23,964 bases of DNA. Source: a virus. A program made the position numbers and the translations under genes. The stretch spans positions 1 to 23,964 of IMG/VR virus record IMGVR_UViG_3300032093_000835. One strand, 5' to 3'. Under the pieces are notes generated by a model. It searched no databases. It worked only from the letters and a program-made list of their open reading frames with translations, and was not told the origin of the DNA. Shown in pieces: positions 11,524-21,322 of the stretch; positions within the stretch are counted from its first letter, which is position 1, and the number at the start of each line of letters is the position of its first letter.

Positions 11524-13401
11524 TTACATATCTTTAATAATTCGATAAAAACTCATCATATCATCGGAATTGTTGATGTCGCTATTAATTTTTTGAGCAA
11601 TCACACCCTTATCTTGATAGCTGATGTTATCGTATATATTTTCCACCATTTCATGAAAATCGGTCGAAGAGAAAAAGGGAACTAAATCCACACAAGTCAT
11701 GGCAATATCATCGTGACCTGTTTGGGATTCATACCTCCCTTGGGCATTCAACCCAAAGGCGGTTAATTCATCCACGGTTTTTTTCTCGGTAATAATGATT
11801 CTTTTTTGATGAATTAAACTTCTCAGTTCTCGAGAATAGGATTCTTTGTTGTCTTTTTGTAGTTTGACCCCTATTTTCATGGTGTCGTTTGAAATACTAT
11901 GTTTGGTGTGTAAAAACAGTTCGGGAAAATAGTTTCTATTTTTGGAAAGCTTCTCAACAATAATATTTCCTTTAAAATTGATTTCCAAAACCACCGAACA
12001 GTTTTCGTGATGGAATACTTGAAACACCAATATTTCTAAAACCTTAGCCACCTCTTCCACCGAAGTATTGTTGGAGTGAAAAATACCTATTTGGCGCAAG
12101 CGGAAAAAACTAGATTCATCATTCCAATCTCGCACCGCCCGAATACCCACTTGAGATTGCACCTCCAATTTAAAAATATTGATAACGGAATAATCTCGAC
12201 CCACACCATCCCCAATATCTAAAACAAAAACAATTTGGTCGTTTTTCACGGCTCGGCTCGTGGGGGTATATTCGGGATGCCACGTTAAATGGGTGGAAAA
12301 ATCGGGGTAGTCTAAAAAATCATCCATTTCTACCCATGTGTAGTTTTTACTAATTCTGTTTAAAAATTGCAAAGTTTGGCTCGATAAAAGTAAGCGAGAA
12401 GAGGCTAAGAATTGGTTGCCGTATTCTTGATTAAATAGTTCTTCATTCCCCAAGTTCGCAATTTCTCGTTTTTTCCACTCCTCATCTCTCCCTGGCACCT
12501 CCCACCAATCCACTCGAATAGGGTTATAGGCATTGGATTTAGTTAAAGCCCCTTGATAAATGTGATAAAAAAGGTTCATTCCATTCGGGGTGGAGGAAAT
12601 AATCATTCGAGATATTTTGGAGGAAGATAGGGTAGGATAAATAGAGCGATAAAAAGGCTCTAAAAAGTTAGGGTGGATATGGGCAAACTCATCCGCATAT
12701 AACAAGTGAATGGTAAAACCGATAGCGGCAGTTTTAGTGGTGGCTTGGGAATATAAGCGATTACCGTTATCAAATTTCATTGAGGTAACCGCACTATTTA
12801 CAATACCTGGTTTCATAAAGAAAGGCAAGTTTTGTAAAACGGTTTTAATTTTATCCACGATTTCTGTCGTGGTCGCTAATTTGTTAGCCACTACCATGGC
12901 ATTTCGGTCAAAATGAAAACAAACATACCAAGCAATAAAAATACTACTCGTGACAGTATTGTGTGATAAAATATCGTTTGTGTAAAATCGATGGTTTGGG
13001 TGGTTGACCGTTAAATCAAACATCGAGTATTTATTACTATTCTTTATTATTTTAACTACTCGCTCCGCACCATCTTTTGTGTAGATATAATCACCGATTT
13101 CTAATTCATCGATAAAAACTTGTTGTAATGTATCGGTAAAGAGAATGTGTTGGTCAGCAGCACATATTTTTTTACCAGATTCTGTCTCCACAATCCATTC
13201 CGTGAATGGTTGGGTTATATGGATATCACCAACACCAACCCATGTAGTGTCAGACATTACTTGTATGTCTGTATTTACAGCAACAGTATTGATAATTTTT
13301 TTAGTTGGGTCGGATGGGTTTAATTGTAAATGGCGATACTCAAACCATTCAACTAATTGAACGGCTTTTAGGATTGCTATTTTAAGTAGCTTTTTTATCA
13401 T
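11524..13401 (-). CDS. 17: Large terminase C-terminal part fused to an intein C-fragment (split TerL)
   Basis: This is a 625-residue protein. Residues 1-148 are an intein C-fragment (described separately); from Thr149 on it is the phage packaging motor gp17. The terminase part holds Walker B with catalytic Glu (LLYADE, 233-238), the ATPase coupling motif ISSTPNG (268-274), and a nuclease domain with acidic residues Asp395 (FVLDIGDG), Glu473 (VVLEIN) and Asp564-565 (TGHDDIA). It lacks the N-terminal region and Walker A, which are encoded at 14565-15059. After trans-splicing the product would be 110 + 477 = 587 residues, close to T4 gp17 (610). The start ATG overlaps the stop of the endonuclease gene by 20 bp, suggesting coupled translation. 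The intein joins inside Walker A (SRQIGK|T), so this half alone cannot hydrolyse ATP. Confidence 0.92.
   Translation of the reverse strand: MIKKLLKIAILKAVQLVEWFEYRHLQLNPSDPTKKIINTVAVNTDIQVMSDTTWVGVGDIHITQPFTEWIVETESGKKICAADQHILFTDTLQQVFIDELEIGDYIYTKDGAERVVKIIKNSNKYSMFDLTVNHPNHRFYTNDILSHNTVTSSIFIAWYVCFHFDRNAMVVANKLATTTEIVDKIKTVLQNLPFFMKPGIVNSAVTSMKFDNGNRLYSQATTKTAAIGFTIHLLYADEFAHIHPNFLEPFYRSIYPTLSSSKISRMIISSTPNGMNLFYHIYQGALTKSNAYNPIRVDWWEVPGRDEEWKKREIANLGNEELFNQEYGNQFLASSRLLLSSQTLQFLNRISKNYTWVEMDDFLDYPDFSTHLTWHPEYTPTSRAVKNDQIVFVLDIGDGVGRDYSVINIFKLEVQSQVGIRAVRDWNDESSFFRLRQIGIFHSNNTSVEEVAKVLEILVFQVFHHENCSVVLEINFKGNIIVEKLSKNRNYFPELFLHTKHSISNDTMKIGVKLQKDNKESYSRELRSLIHQKRIIITEKKTVDELTAFGLNAQGRYESQTGHDDIAMTCVDLVPFFSSTDFHEMVENIYDNISYQDKGVIAQKINSDINNSDDMMSFYRIIKDM
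12958..13401 (-). other. Split-intein C-fragment (IntC, 148 residues)
   Basis: The fragment opens with an amphipathic, aromatic-rich helix (IKKLLKIAILKAVQLVEWF). It then carries the rest of the Hint fold: a DIQVMSDTTWVGVGDI region, block B with His85 (CAADQHILFTD, where the usual Thr at His-3 is Ala), IDELEIGDYIYTKDG, block F (NHPNHRFYTNDIL) and block G ending Ser-His147-Asn148 before Thr149. Because block B is on this piece, the break lies unusually near the intein N-terminus. There is no endonuclease domain within it. Thr149 would be the +1 nucleophile. Confidence 0.92.
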
Positions 13402-14509
13402 ATATGAAGTTTATGCATTTTTCTATTGTTTTTATTGGATTTGATTTGTACTCTGATTCCCACACCACCATAACCAAAAAACCTTCTTGTTCTATTAATT
13501 TTTTTTTATTGTTATCAGCTTCCCATATATCTTTTGCTGATAGCCCTATTACTTTATGTGTGTATGTTGGTTGATAGATATTTGGGTTACAGTGCCAGTA
13601 ATCACCATTAAATTCTATTATTTTGTTACCAATAACAAAGTCATAGGAATGTGTTATTTTTTGGCTTGGGAAATATCTAAAAAATTGTACCCCGTTTAAC
13701 GCACTATAATACTTATTGTTGCATTTTAAATTATCTACTATTTTTCCGATAAATTCTAATTCTAAAGTTGAATGATTATTTTTCGAGAACTTGACAAATT
13801 CTCCGTTTTTATACATATCATTTATTTTACAACCCCATTCCTTATTTCTTTTTTTCCAAACTTCTGTACCCTTATCCTTCTTGTACTTTTCAATACATTT
13901 AGCAAGTGTAAATGTTCTTTGTCTTTCTCTATATTTACATATTGCCGTCTCATTATCCCCATACTTATTTTTCCAATATTCGAGATTGGTTTCCGTTAAG
14001 CGATTGGATAATGCTTTTTTTGCAAAATCAGAAACAGCCCTTTCTTTGTCTTTGATATTTATATACCCCTTAAAACTTTTTGAAAATGGTGATAATGTTT
14101 TTCGATATTCTTCGGTTGTTTTTGATTTGTGATTTGGGTTATTGATTCCTTTGACTTTTTCACTCATCATAGTTCGATACCTATAATCTTTCATATGGAT
14201 TCCCGAATTCTTAGACGTGTTTTTTTTATCTGTTAAACAAGTCAAATTTTCATTTGGGAACTCAGTACGATAATCATTGATATTTTTGTCTTTGTGGTGC
14301 TTTTTAATATGTGTCCCATATATTCTCTTTACTCGACATTCACACCATTTACAAGTAATGTAATCAATACCCTCAGTGCCTTTAAGGTTTTTTGATTTTT
14401 CGATTAATGCCTTTTGTTTTTTTAACTCTTGACCTTTCTCTTTGCAAATGGGTGAGCAGTATTTGACACCAGCGCCTCTGACTTCTGTTTCGCAAATTAA
14501 ACAATTCAT
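13382..14509 (-). CDS. Free-standing Vsr-like homing endonuclease with zinc fingers, inside the split terminase gene
   Basis: This is a 375-residue protein. Two Cys clusters come first: C3/C6/C18/C22, a zinc-ribbon-like finger, and C53-xx-C56...H67-xxx-H71, a C2H2/MucR-like finger followed by NDYRTEFP. A linker at about 105-165 has MKDYRYRTMMSEK and GINNPNHKS motifs typical of homing-enzyme DNA-contact regions. The C-terminus (245-375) is a PD-(D/E)xK nuclease of the Vsr-like type: STLELEF with Glu250, SYDF with Asp290, IIEFNGDYWHCNP (Glu299, W305, H306), KDIWEADNNK and VVWESEY. It begins 55 nt downstream of the terminase N-half and overlaps the start of the C-half. Family knowledge: such enzymes occur as stand-alone genes between the halves of 'fractured' split-intein genes, where they spread the insertion to uninterrupted copies. 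Composition is more AT-rich than the terminase around it. Confidence 0.88.
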   Translation of the reverse strand: MNCLICETEVRGAGVKYCSPICKEKGQELKKQKALIEKSKNLKGTEGIDYITCKWCECRVKRIYGTHIKKHHKDKNINDYRTEFPNENLTCLTDKKNTSKNSGIHMKDYRYRTMMSEKVKGINNPNHKSKTTEEYRKTLSPFSKSFKGYINIKDKERAVSDFAKKALSNRLTETNLEYWKNKYGDNETAICKYRERQRTFTLAKCIEKYKKDKGTEVWKKRNKEWGCKINDMYKNGEFVKFSKNNHSTLELEFIGKIVDNLKCNNKYYSALNGVQFFRYFPSQKITHSYDFVIGNKIIEFNGDYWHCNPNIYQPTYTHKVIGLSAKDIWEADNNKKKLIEQEGFLVMVVWESEYKSNPIKTIEKCINFIYDKKAT

Positions 14510-14520
14510 GTGTATACCAT

Positions 14521-14540
14521 TTTTTATAGTATATATTTAA
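14521..14540 (-). promoter_or_regulatory. Putative promoter for the homing endonuclease and terminase C-half
   Basis: The minus strand reads TTAAATATATACTATAAAAA, ending 11 nt before the endonuclease start codon, in the 55-nt gap after the terminase N-half. It matches the late-type motif, so the inserted segment may drive its own transcription and that of the C-half. Confidence 0.5.
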
Positions 14541-14564
14541 AACATCACCTTGCTTTTTGACAAA

Positions 14565-15059
14565 TCACCCTAGCCAGTCATAAAATTTCCAAAGCCCCCA
14601 CTTTAATTTTTCAAATGGGGATAATTTTCGTTCCTTTTGGAGTAACATAAAGTAAAGATTGCCTAATGATATTTCCATGATATTTTGGTTTTTAATCATT
14701 ATTTTTATTTTAGTAGAATACGAAGAACATTTTCCAATTTGTCTACTTGCGACCATTACGTTGAAGCGGTTGTCTTGGAAATCCCGTAACATTTTTTTCT
14801 GATAACCTCGAAGCTTAATTCGAGAAATACCCTCATCCGTCATGGAATAGCAATAATTCTCCCCAAAATAAGCTACATCATCGGCACACTTAGCCAATTC
14901 TTGTAGTTCACTTTCTGTATAATCAAAAACAATATCAGGCGCACGGTACTCTATTTTACCATCCCAAAAGGGGGCATAATCAGCCGTCAGACCTTGTTCT
15001 ATTTTATTGATTTCTTCTTGTATTTTTTTGGAAGACCAAACTTTACCTCTATTCGACAT
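14565..15059 (-). CDS. 17: Large terminase N-terminal part fused to an intein N-fragment (split TerL)
   Basis: This is a 164-residue protein. Residues 1-110 are the terminase N-terminus: YAPFWDGKIEYRAPD, the RIKLRGYQKKMLRDFQDNRF adenine-binding-type region (RGYQ), then Walker A up to Lys (VMVASRQIGK, 101-110). Residue 111 is Cys, the first intein residue, and the last 54 residues are intein N-fragment ending DWLG at a TGA. In T4 gp17 the motif reads SRQLGKT, so the intein splits Lys from Thr of the P-loop. The gene starts within the end of the small terminase gene (11-bp overlap), the normal 16-17 arrangement. Without trans-splicing to the product of 11524-13401 it has no Walker B, coupling motif or nuclease. 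The short length is not a sequencing error: the new C-terminus is intein sequence, not terminase. Confidence 0.9.
   Translation of the reverse strand: MSNRGKVWSSKKIQEEINKIEQGLTADYAPFWDGKIEYRAPDIVFDYTESELQELAKCADDVAYFGENYCYSMTDEGISRIKLRGYQKKMLRDFQDNRFNVMVASRQIGKCSSYSTKIKIMIKNQNIMEISLGNLYFMLLQKERKLSPFEKLKWGLWKFYDWLG
14568..14729 (-). other. Split-intein N-fragment (IntN, 54 residues)
   Basis: It starts with Cys111 (TGT at 14727-14729) immediately after the Walker A Lys. Block A is CSSYSTKIKIMIKN, then MEISLGNLYFMLL, the usual first beta strands and helix of a Hint domain. It ends before block B with a Lys/aromatic segment, LSPFEKLKWGLWKFYDWLG. That segment has no counterpart in short atypical N-fragments and may pair with the similar amphipathic start of the C-fragment. 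Confidence 0.9.
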
Positions 15060-20055: not shown

Positions 20056-20925
20056 TTAGTTTGTTTTTTGATATTTTTTGCTGATTATCATGGGGGTGGT
20101 ATTATTCCAAGAAATGGAGTGATGTAACCTTGGGTTATTAGCTCGCATCATGGAAACTTTAACCCCACTTGGGTGCATCATAGTTGTTGTGAAGGCTTTG
20201 CAATATGTCCCATATTTTAAATACATATCCGTAATCCCACCCTTTTGGGTTTGGCTATCTTTTTGATTGATGGCAAATACGGGTATCGTCAAGAATAACT
20301 CGCCCCTATGGGCTAAAGTAGTGTACGTGTTCACATCTTCATTCATTGCCCCGATAAATTGGAAAGGTCTTTCCGTACTACAAAAAAAGCTATTCATACA
20401 CTTCCGCTTACTGAATCGATAAGTACCCTTACCGTTATCTATCCCGCCAATGAAGTCGCCCGTTTGGGCGAAAGCTATGCTTAGGCAATTTGTTTTTTTA
20501 TAGAAAGAAATAACCGTGTCAAACAGTTTGTCAATATCTTTAGGCATTTTCGCCCCCTTAATCCCTAGGAATTTATAAATAAATTCATAGTAATCATCAT
20601 CTAGTTGTAGAAAATAAGTTATGCCTAATTTTTCGGCGATTTTAAAACAAGCATTTCGGGCGTGGGTTATGGTTCTCCTCTCATCAAAATTATTACCCTC
20701 ATCCACGGAGTCTGCCATTTCCTTTTTGTTAAAAACAATGATATTTTCTTTCCCGAAATTTTTTTGATACTGAGGTAGTGTTTTGTCTTCATCATCTAAG
20801 ACGAAATACAACAAGCCCTTATACCCACACTTATCAAGAGTTTTTTTAGTCCAAACATTATCGGGTCTGCCGTGCGTAAGGATAAAAACAGCAAAGTCCT
20901 TATTTTCCGAATGGTCAATCTTCAT
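20056..20925 (-). CDS. Glycosyltransferase of the TET-associated (TAGT/GREB1-like) type
   Basis: I chose the second ATG (20925), giving 289 residues and an 11-bp overlap with the upstream gene; an earlier ATG at 20958 would add 11 residues. The N-terminus shows a GT-A nucleotide-sugar fold: FAVFILTHGRPDNVWTKKTL (11-30), LLYFVLDDEDKTLPQY with an acidic DDED, FNKKEMADSVDEG, THARNACFKIAEK, and the metal-binding FLQLDDDY (Asp109-111). This order matches the phage family named for its association with TET/JBP oxygenases, which adds sugars to hydroxylated pyrimidines in DNA. The C-terminal half has FIGAMNEDVNTYTTLAHRGE, a likely acceptor region. No TET/JBP or thymidylate-modifying gene is visible in the window, so the DNA substrate is inferred from the family; a different acceptor is possible. 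Confidence 0.72.
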   Translation of the reverse strand: MKIDHSENKDFAVFILTHGRPDNVWTKKTLDKCGYKGLLYFVLDDEDKTLPQYQKNFGKENIIVFNKKEMADSVDEGNNFDERRTITHARNACFKIAEKLGITYFLQLDDDYYEFIYKFLGIKGAKMPKDIDKLFDTVISFYKKTNCLSIAFAQTGDFIGGIDNGKGTYRFSKRKCMNSFFCSTERPFQFIGAMNEDVNTYTTLAHRGELFLTIPVFAINQKDSQTQKGGITDMYLKYGTYCKAFTTTMMHPSGVKVSMMRANNPRLHHSISWNNTTPMIISKKYQKTN

Positions 20926-21322
20926 AATCTTCCAAGTATTGTTTTTTGATATCTTCACACAATTTTACATAACCCAATTCTATAGCCTCATTAAAATCAA
21001 TAATGACTAAGGCACTTTTTTCCATCAAGCTTTGCATTTCGGGCGTGGCGTGAGCATAGTAGTCCGCTATTTTCTCGTAATGAAACACAGTGTGTCTTTG
21101 TGCCGCTTTGAGTAGGAATTTTTTTTCGGAGGGGGTGACATTGGACTGATTTATATCATAAATTAAGGCTTTGGTTTTATCATCTTGATACAAATCAAAT
21201 ATATCGGGTTGTTCGTTTTTGGGTTCGTAGATAGGGGCATCTATCTTCATCGTATATTTTTGGTCGTTTGGAGACCTCTCATTACTTATGATTTCCTCCC
21301 CGAATAAATTAAACTTCTTCAT
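20915..21322 (-). CDS. Conserved-looking phage protein of unknown function
   Basis: This is a 135-residue protein. The N-terminus is short and polar with a proline turn (KIDAPIYEPKNEQPDIFDLY), followed by a helical domain with strong, specific-looking motifs: VTPSEKKFLLKAAQRHTVFH, YEKIADYYAHATPEMQSLME and SALVIIDFNEAIELGYVKL. Regular acidic and His residues could form an active or metal site, but I cannot name one. The pattern looks like a family seen near DNA-modification genes in large phages, which I recall only weakly. It sits 8 nt downstream of the clamp loader and overlaps the glycosyltransferase start, so it is co-transcribed and possibly coupled with it. Confidence 0.75.
   Translation of the reverse strand: MKKFNLFGEEIISNERSPNDQKYTMKIDAPIYEPKNEQPDIFDLYQDDKTKALIYDINQSNVTPSEKKFLLKAAQRHTVFHYEKIADYYAHATPEMQSLMEKSALVIIDFNEAIELGYVKLCEDIKKQYLEDYED

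Follow-up and report, generated by a model that had tools for sequence, protein, structure and literature searches.

A predicted trans-spliced phage terminase: a split intein and a Vsr-like endonuclease gene interrupt the Walker A motif of TerL

In the viral DNA studied here (IMG/VR record IMGVR_UViG_3300032093_000835, positions 1 to 23,964; this whole stretch of 23,964 nucleotides is called the window), a T4-type large terminase (TerL) is encoded as two genes, broken exactly between the Lys and the Thr of its Walker A motif. We put at about 0.9 the probability that the break is due to a mobile cassette that invades P-loops and combines a homing endonuclease with a split intein through which TerL would be trans-spliced. 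Three adjacent genes on the - strand make up the locus, namely the N-half, a nuclease and the C-half. The N-half gene (14565..15059, 164 residues) shares 11 bp with the gene upstream of it. Its residues 1-110 (14730..15059) are the TerL N-extein, which ends in the Walker A sequence ..ASRQIGK and aligns to residues 1-110 of TerL in the closest relative, L020. The homing endonuclease gene (13382..14509, 375 residues) starts 55 bp past the N-half stop codon and overlaps the first 20 bp of the C-half gene (11524..13401, 625 residues). The TerL C-extein (11527..12957) opens with Thr149, the Walker A Thr at position +1, and carries Walker B (YADEFA), STPNG and the nuclease acids (VLDIGDG, LEIN and HDD), as assigned with Pfam and PHROGs. 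A complete Walker A motif is absent from each half taken alone. PHROGs identified both halves as terminase large subunit (4e-19 and 1e-27), and the C-half matched Pfam Terminase_6N (5e-13). The joined exteins count 110 + 477 = 587 residues, the length of the uninterrupted TerL of L020 (587 residues). The predicted ligated product is collinear with that protein and contains Walker A, Walker B and the nuclease acids of a T4-type large terminase; its junction, ASRQIGK/TVTSS (the slash marks the break), is read straight through in L020, where the same tail-sheath gene follows terL.

The original prediction, made from the letters of the window, had described an N-half ending in SRQIGK followed by Cys111 and 53 further residues, a C-half starting with 148 intein residues that end in His-Asn before Thr and the rest of TerL, and a 375-residue zinc-finger/Vsr-like gene between them. 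We found the same residues in the sequence (...VASRQIGK up to residue 110; SHN, then Thr149), and the intervening gene is present with a nuclease fold of the I-Bth0305I/Vsr type. Although the window is a metagenomic contig, the probability that an assembly artefact joined unrelated pieces is negligible: three further metagenomes yielded near-identical contigs with the same arrangement (L002, 99.98%; L003, 99.95%; L123), and 76 other non-redundant split loci were found. Assembly error, which the prediction had named as one possible undoing, was rejected on these independent contigs.

The N-terminal intein half (IntN, 14568..14729, - strand) consists of Cys1 (codon 111, 14727-14729), a core of ~28 residues and a C-terminal tail of ~26 residues, predicted to be helical from the AlphaFold model of L235, a relative with a fused intein. 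The C-terminal half (IntC, 12958..13401, - strand, 148 residues) contains a helical head (residues 1-37, 13291..13401, - strand), block B (CAADQH), block F (MFDLTVNHPNHRFYTN) and block G (SHN). The head, with the consensus MxKxLKxIILxLIQLIEKxEYRN, is kept in 23 relatives and absent from short atypical TerL inteins. The residues of a class 1 intein are in place (Cys111; His147-Asn148/Thr149). A profile search of the intein pieces had been proposed with the original prediction; a profile of 23 aligned IntC sequences matched the solved inteins gp41-1, VidaL and CatC (expect value (E) 1.5e-11 to 1.6e-10). The L235 intein, modelled with an input of three fused proteins and the IntC rows, was predicted to adopt an intein fold (predicted local distance difference test score 91.5, predicted template-modelling score 0.85), and Foldseek ranked VidaL first in the PDB (template-modelling score 0.86 by target). 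Residues 40-58 and 61-81 of the model form the two helices of a hairpin, whose loop lies exactly at the fracture point of the split proteins. In this model, the IntN tail corresponds to helix 1 of the hairpin and the conserved IntC head to helix 2. Because the hairpin loop coincides with the break, the window intein is read as a class 1 split intein that is broken early and has a helix pair that may serve in docking.

We then compared TerL loci from viral-contig scans with the N-half, endonuclease and IntC alignments and from one genome scan, after de-duplication at 97%; the split and empty counts are lower bounds among the matches listed and are not prevalences. Non-redundant loci at this P-loop comprised at least 77 split, at least 5 fused in a single open reading frame (L205, L235, L204, L252 and L255) and at least about 46 empty sites. 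Two loci at first scored empty, L009 and L045, hold contiguous LAGLIDADG inteins, which brings the empty count to about 46 and means that the tree counts given below may be 2 too high. Tailed halves of the window's type were found in 65 of the 77 splits, and the other 12, also at this site, are short and lack the tails. Among the 65 tailed splits, the endonuclease was full in 39, inverted in 1, a remnant in 6 and scrambled in 2; it was undetected in 17, of which 12 had a short gap and 5 a longer one. The claim of the original prediction that a split intein fractures TerL within Walker A is borne out by the intein profile, by the fold and by relatives in which exactly this site is empty. In several of the longer gaps, the place of the endonuclease is taken by another nuclease family of larger size (about 560-670 residues; L196:7308-9014, L233:7326-9014 and L224:7017-9017), which is inverted in L200:7251-8978(-).

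Cys1 was kept in 62 of the 65 tailed splits, as was HN/T or HN/S, and the median IntN length was 55 residues (54 in the window). This conservation bears on a rival account in which TerL works as two non-covalent chains that intein residues merely dock. The loss of the block G His or Asn in a few relatives would suit it, but the splicing residues are otherwise kept, and an intein left within the P-loop should, from established knowledge of ATPases, abolish ATP binding; we give this account very little credence. Position 1 is Thr in the TerL inteins of L121, L253 and L254 and Ser in L252; Thr at this position is very unusual among inteins. A joining at the RNA level is equally hard to credit. 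In that case, the gap would be a group I or II intron with its endonuclease, as in the ICP1 terminase, and there are phages whose terL contains introns and has endonucleases close by (PMC10448857). However, the codons on either side of the gap specify conserved residues of the intein and are under purifying selection, the fused relatives retain all of the intein coding sequence as one reading frame, and the halves of L005 and L244 lie in separate, partly opposite-strand units. A group I/II intron was rejected, as Rfam gave no intron match in the window.

Several observations are consistent with a homing cycle. On a TerL tree of 125 rows, empty and occupied alleles were interleaved, with 18 changes, 15 of them forced by well-supported branches; endonuclease status changed at least 24 times, and fused forms appeared at five separate places. 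The window endonuclease was sister to that of L095 (support 100), though empty-site TerLs lie between the two on the TerL tree. The inteins were more alike than their host genes: L115 and L205 shared 78% identity in IntC and 44% in TerL, and L229 (split, with endonuclease) and L205 (fused) shared 91% in IntN, 82% in IntC and 66-70% in the flanking exteins. At the DNA level, L205 equals L229 minus the endonuclease and the stop and start codons, with five bases at the join, and L205 is therefore read as a re-fusion event. Compared with the sister locus L016, the ratio of nonsynonymous to synonymous substitution (dN/dS) was 0.11-0.18 in IntN, the IntC core and the endonuclease, with mainly synonymous substitutions; the corresponding ratio in the exteins (pN/pS) was 0.10-0.13. 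The dN/dS values indicate that the splicing and nuclease functions are under selection. Taken together, the sequences point to a homing cycle of the cassette in which the endonuclease may degrade, disappear or give way to another nuclease.

The N-terminus of the endonuclease holds two Cys/His zinc-finger-like motifs and the C-terminus a Vsr-like nuclease (D290, E299, H306), in which D290 and E299 are invariant among relatives and H306 is at least 90% conserved. The protein matched phrog_22677 (3e-20). In Foldseek, the top matches of the modelled C-terminal domain were I-Bth0305I (probability 1.00, E 0.019) and Vsr (probability 0.99), in agreement with the Vsr-like nuclease that had been predicted. 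Its sequence relatives include the nuclease between the split polB halves of Aeromonas phage Aes508 (L012). A free-standing relative in Caulobacter phage Cr30 (L011:3989-5011) lies directly upstream of an uninterrupted terL. Because empty and occupied alleles interleave and the inteins are more alike than the host genes, the endonuclease probably cuts the empty P-loop codons. Third codon positions around GK/T were not unusually conserved in terL of the relatives; a conserved DNA-level target was rejected on this basis, and no target sequence is therefore proposed. The synonymous divergence of the endonuclease (0.51 vs 0.45-0.91 in other genes) is suggestive only, as one other gene was as low against L016.

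The two halves can also lie far apart. The huge-phage genomes of PMC7162821 are described as complete, curated and circularized, and LR756501 (735 kb) is taken to be one of them. Its N-half and C-half are 12.4 kb apart, separated by about a dozen genes on both strands without the endonuclease. In L244, the N-half is on the opposite strand. In sister loci, the gap holds the endonuclease and other genes (L237) or 2.1 kb of ordinary genes (L239), and both look like intermediate steps toward dispersal. No other TerL was found in related records of 109, 218 and 597 kb, which hold the halves only. If TerL is essential, phages with dispersed halves therefore need trans-splicing. The predicted dependence of DNA packaging on trans-splicing is supported by these records, with no uninterrupted TerL in those up to 597 kb and no functional one in the 735-kb genome. 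LR756501 (L263:2355-3527) and LR756500 (L004:7937-8749) each encode an uninterrupted ATPase-domain TerL paralogue with SRQMGI[TS] and no nuclease domain, a possible decoy or regulator; in LR756501 it is the sole other TerL-like open reading frame. These extra genes, and the fact that the window is a fragment, are what could favour a degenerate fracture, that is, a pseudogene with packaging by another terminase. This is very unlikely: in the extra proteins, Ile replaces the Walker A Lys and the nuclease domain is missing; the window halves retain every catalytic motif of TerL, with strong suppression of amino acid changes in the exteins; and the related records up to 597 kb hold the halves alone.

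Further variants of the fractured TerL were seen. In L117 (3971-5833) and L118, the ATPase domain of the C-half is interrupted again, farther downstream, by a contiguous intein. L257:7543-10221 and L258:459-2541 have a three-piece TerL, with a short P-loop split intein and a second split intein at an AceL-like site (..QEFE/S or C ... SHN/CEF); both are without the endonuclease, and the N piece is missing from the L258 contig. The same endonuclease/short split-intein family also breaks other P-loops (GK/C..HN/S or T) in DnaB-like helicase, SbcC-like and other ATPase genes (L127/L128, L120, L131, L157, L166, L125, L168 and L156), including three genes in contig L127.

From these results, we propose that a class 1 split intein, broken unusually early, and a free-standing Vsr-like homing endonuclease invaded an essential terminase gene at its P-loop. 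The two halves would be translated separately, and the helices of the IntN tail and the IntC head would form a hairpin that brings the fragments together. Cys111 and Thr149 would act as nucleophiles and His147/Asn148 would free the intein, so that Lys110 is joined to Thr149 in an intact TerL of 587 residues. In co-infecting relatives with an empty terL, the endonuclease would cleave near the GK/T codons, and repair would copy the cassette in. Once the site is filled, the endonuclease may decay, be lost or be replaced. The split may then persist while its halves drift apart, or deletion of the endonuclease may re-fuse the intein.

Some findings weigh against this proposal. Block B of inteins usually carries Thr (TxxH). 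Its His is invariant here, but Ala replaces the Thr in 23 of the 23 aligned sequences (ADxH; A82-D-x-H in the window). The Pfam intein model matched only weakly (E 0.007), and block G varies in the C-halves of L004 (SQ/T), L005 (LN/T) and L217 (SN/T), whose inteins are otherwise intact. The hydrophobic moments of tails and heads were not above composition shuffles (median p 0.27 for tails, 0.12 for heads). Amphipathic tails were rejected on this result; tail pairing therefore rests on the model, and helicity alone is claimed. The similarity of the endonuclease to the Vsr fold is modest (Foldseek E 0.02-0.1, probability 0.98-1.00), the window is a 24-kb fragment, and splicing and cleavage are read from sequence and models.

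It is conceivable, if somewhat short of an even chance, that across a broad lineage of phages, both large and huge, the packaging ATPase has come to depend lastingly on trans-splicing. After loss of the endonuclease, the halves would disperse into separate transcription units (12.4 kb apart in the 735-kb genome, on opposite strands in L244), and in other phages two different split inteins would make TerL from three chains (L257, L258). In that case, natural trans-splicing would be kept as an essential process without its homing partner, and L205 would show a way back by re-fusion, caught in the act. In the 735-kb genome, the largest complete one of a phage described in Al-Shayeb et al. 2020, the packaging motor appears to be assembled by trans-splicing the products of two genes 12 kb apart, which has gone unnoticed because a contiguous terL is absent. 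With a series that runs from the empty site through the endonuclease-bearing split to decay and loss of the endonuclease, re-fusion and dispersal, ideas on how split inteins arise and what becomes of them can be tested directly. The tailed halves may be a natural means of docking, from which new tools for protein ligation could be developed. Annotation pipelines, and phage phylogenies built on terminases, will treat such genes wrongly. Elsewhere in the window, a gene at 20056-20958 (- strand) strongly matched a phage DNA-glucosyltransferase family in PHROGs (2e-62), which hints at modified phage DNA.

The novel features are the insertion at the P-loop, the tails on the halves, the early break, the re-fused and scattered states and the three-piece TerL; in the searched literature, which misses most subscription papers, neither the tailed P-loop variant nor a TerL with dispersed halves was found described. 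The AceL-TerL site lies before ...CEFLG, and L146 and L257 have a counterpart arrangement. Like AceL-TerL, GOS-TerL and Cat (PDB 6dsl), the window has a natural split intein in a phage TerL with a short IntN and a long IntC, and its IntC profile matches CatC. IntN of these atypical inteins is 25-37 residues (PMC11766414), whereas that of the window has 54; its IntC has 148 (vs about 104), with extra helical segments, and its site is GK/T with Thr at +1, where AceL and GOS have Cys. Membership of the AceL/GOS-TerL group was rejected on the Walker A insertion site and the IntN of 54 residues, although the window's intein would function in the manner of that group. VidaL (PDB 6vgv) is the best fold match of the fused relative L235 and a strong profile match, but the long helical hairpin at the break appears to be absent from the matched 145-residue structure, as the query segment left unaligned suggests. 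TerL of Klebsiella phages RaK2 and K64-1 contains contiguous LAGLIDADG inteins (PMC5259590) at the same GK/T insertion point; unlike the window, they have a single open reading frame with LAGLIDADG inside and Leu at position 1, and they are therefore probably class 3 and of separate origin. Contiguous LAGLIDADG inteins at this P-loop site in L009:4944-7613 (K64-1) and L045:9935-13783, with Leu1 or Ala1, are likewise probably class 3, an independent colonisation. The endonuclease shares the fold of its C-terminal domain with I-Bth0305I (PDB 3r3p) and Vsr (1cw0), but the full protein is 375 residues long, its N-terminus is zinc-finger-like, and it is associated with a split intein instead of an intron or mismatch repair. 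In 2009, Dassa and co-workers reportedly described genes fractured by split inteins and accompanied by Vsr-like endonucleases, and polB of MIJ3 is a fractured-gene example (PMC6892783). The window likewise has extein and intein halves in separate genes with an endonuclease gene between, as does polB of Aes508, whose Vsr-like endonuclease is homologous. Unlike Aes508 and other Dassa-type fractured genes, the window has TerL Walker A as its host site, an early intein break and helical tails, and for its family the decayed, re-fused and dispersed stages are documented.

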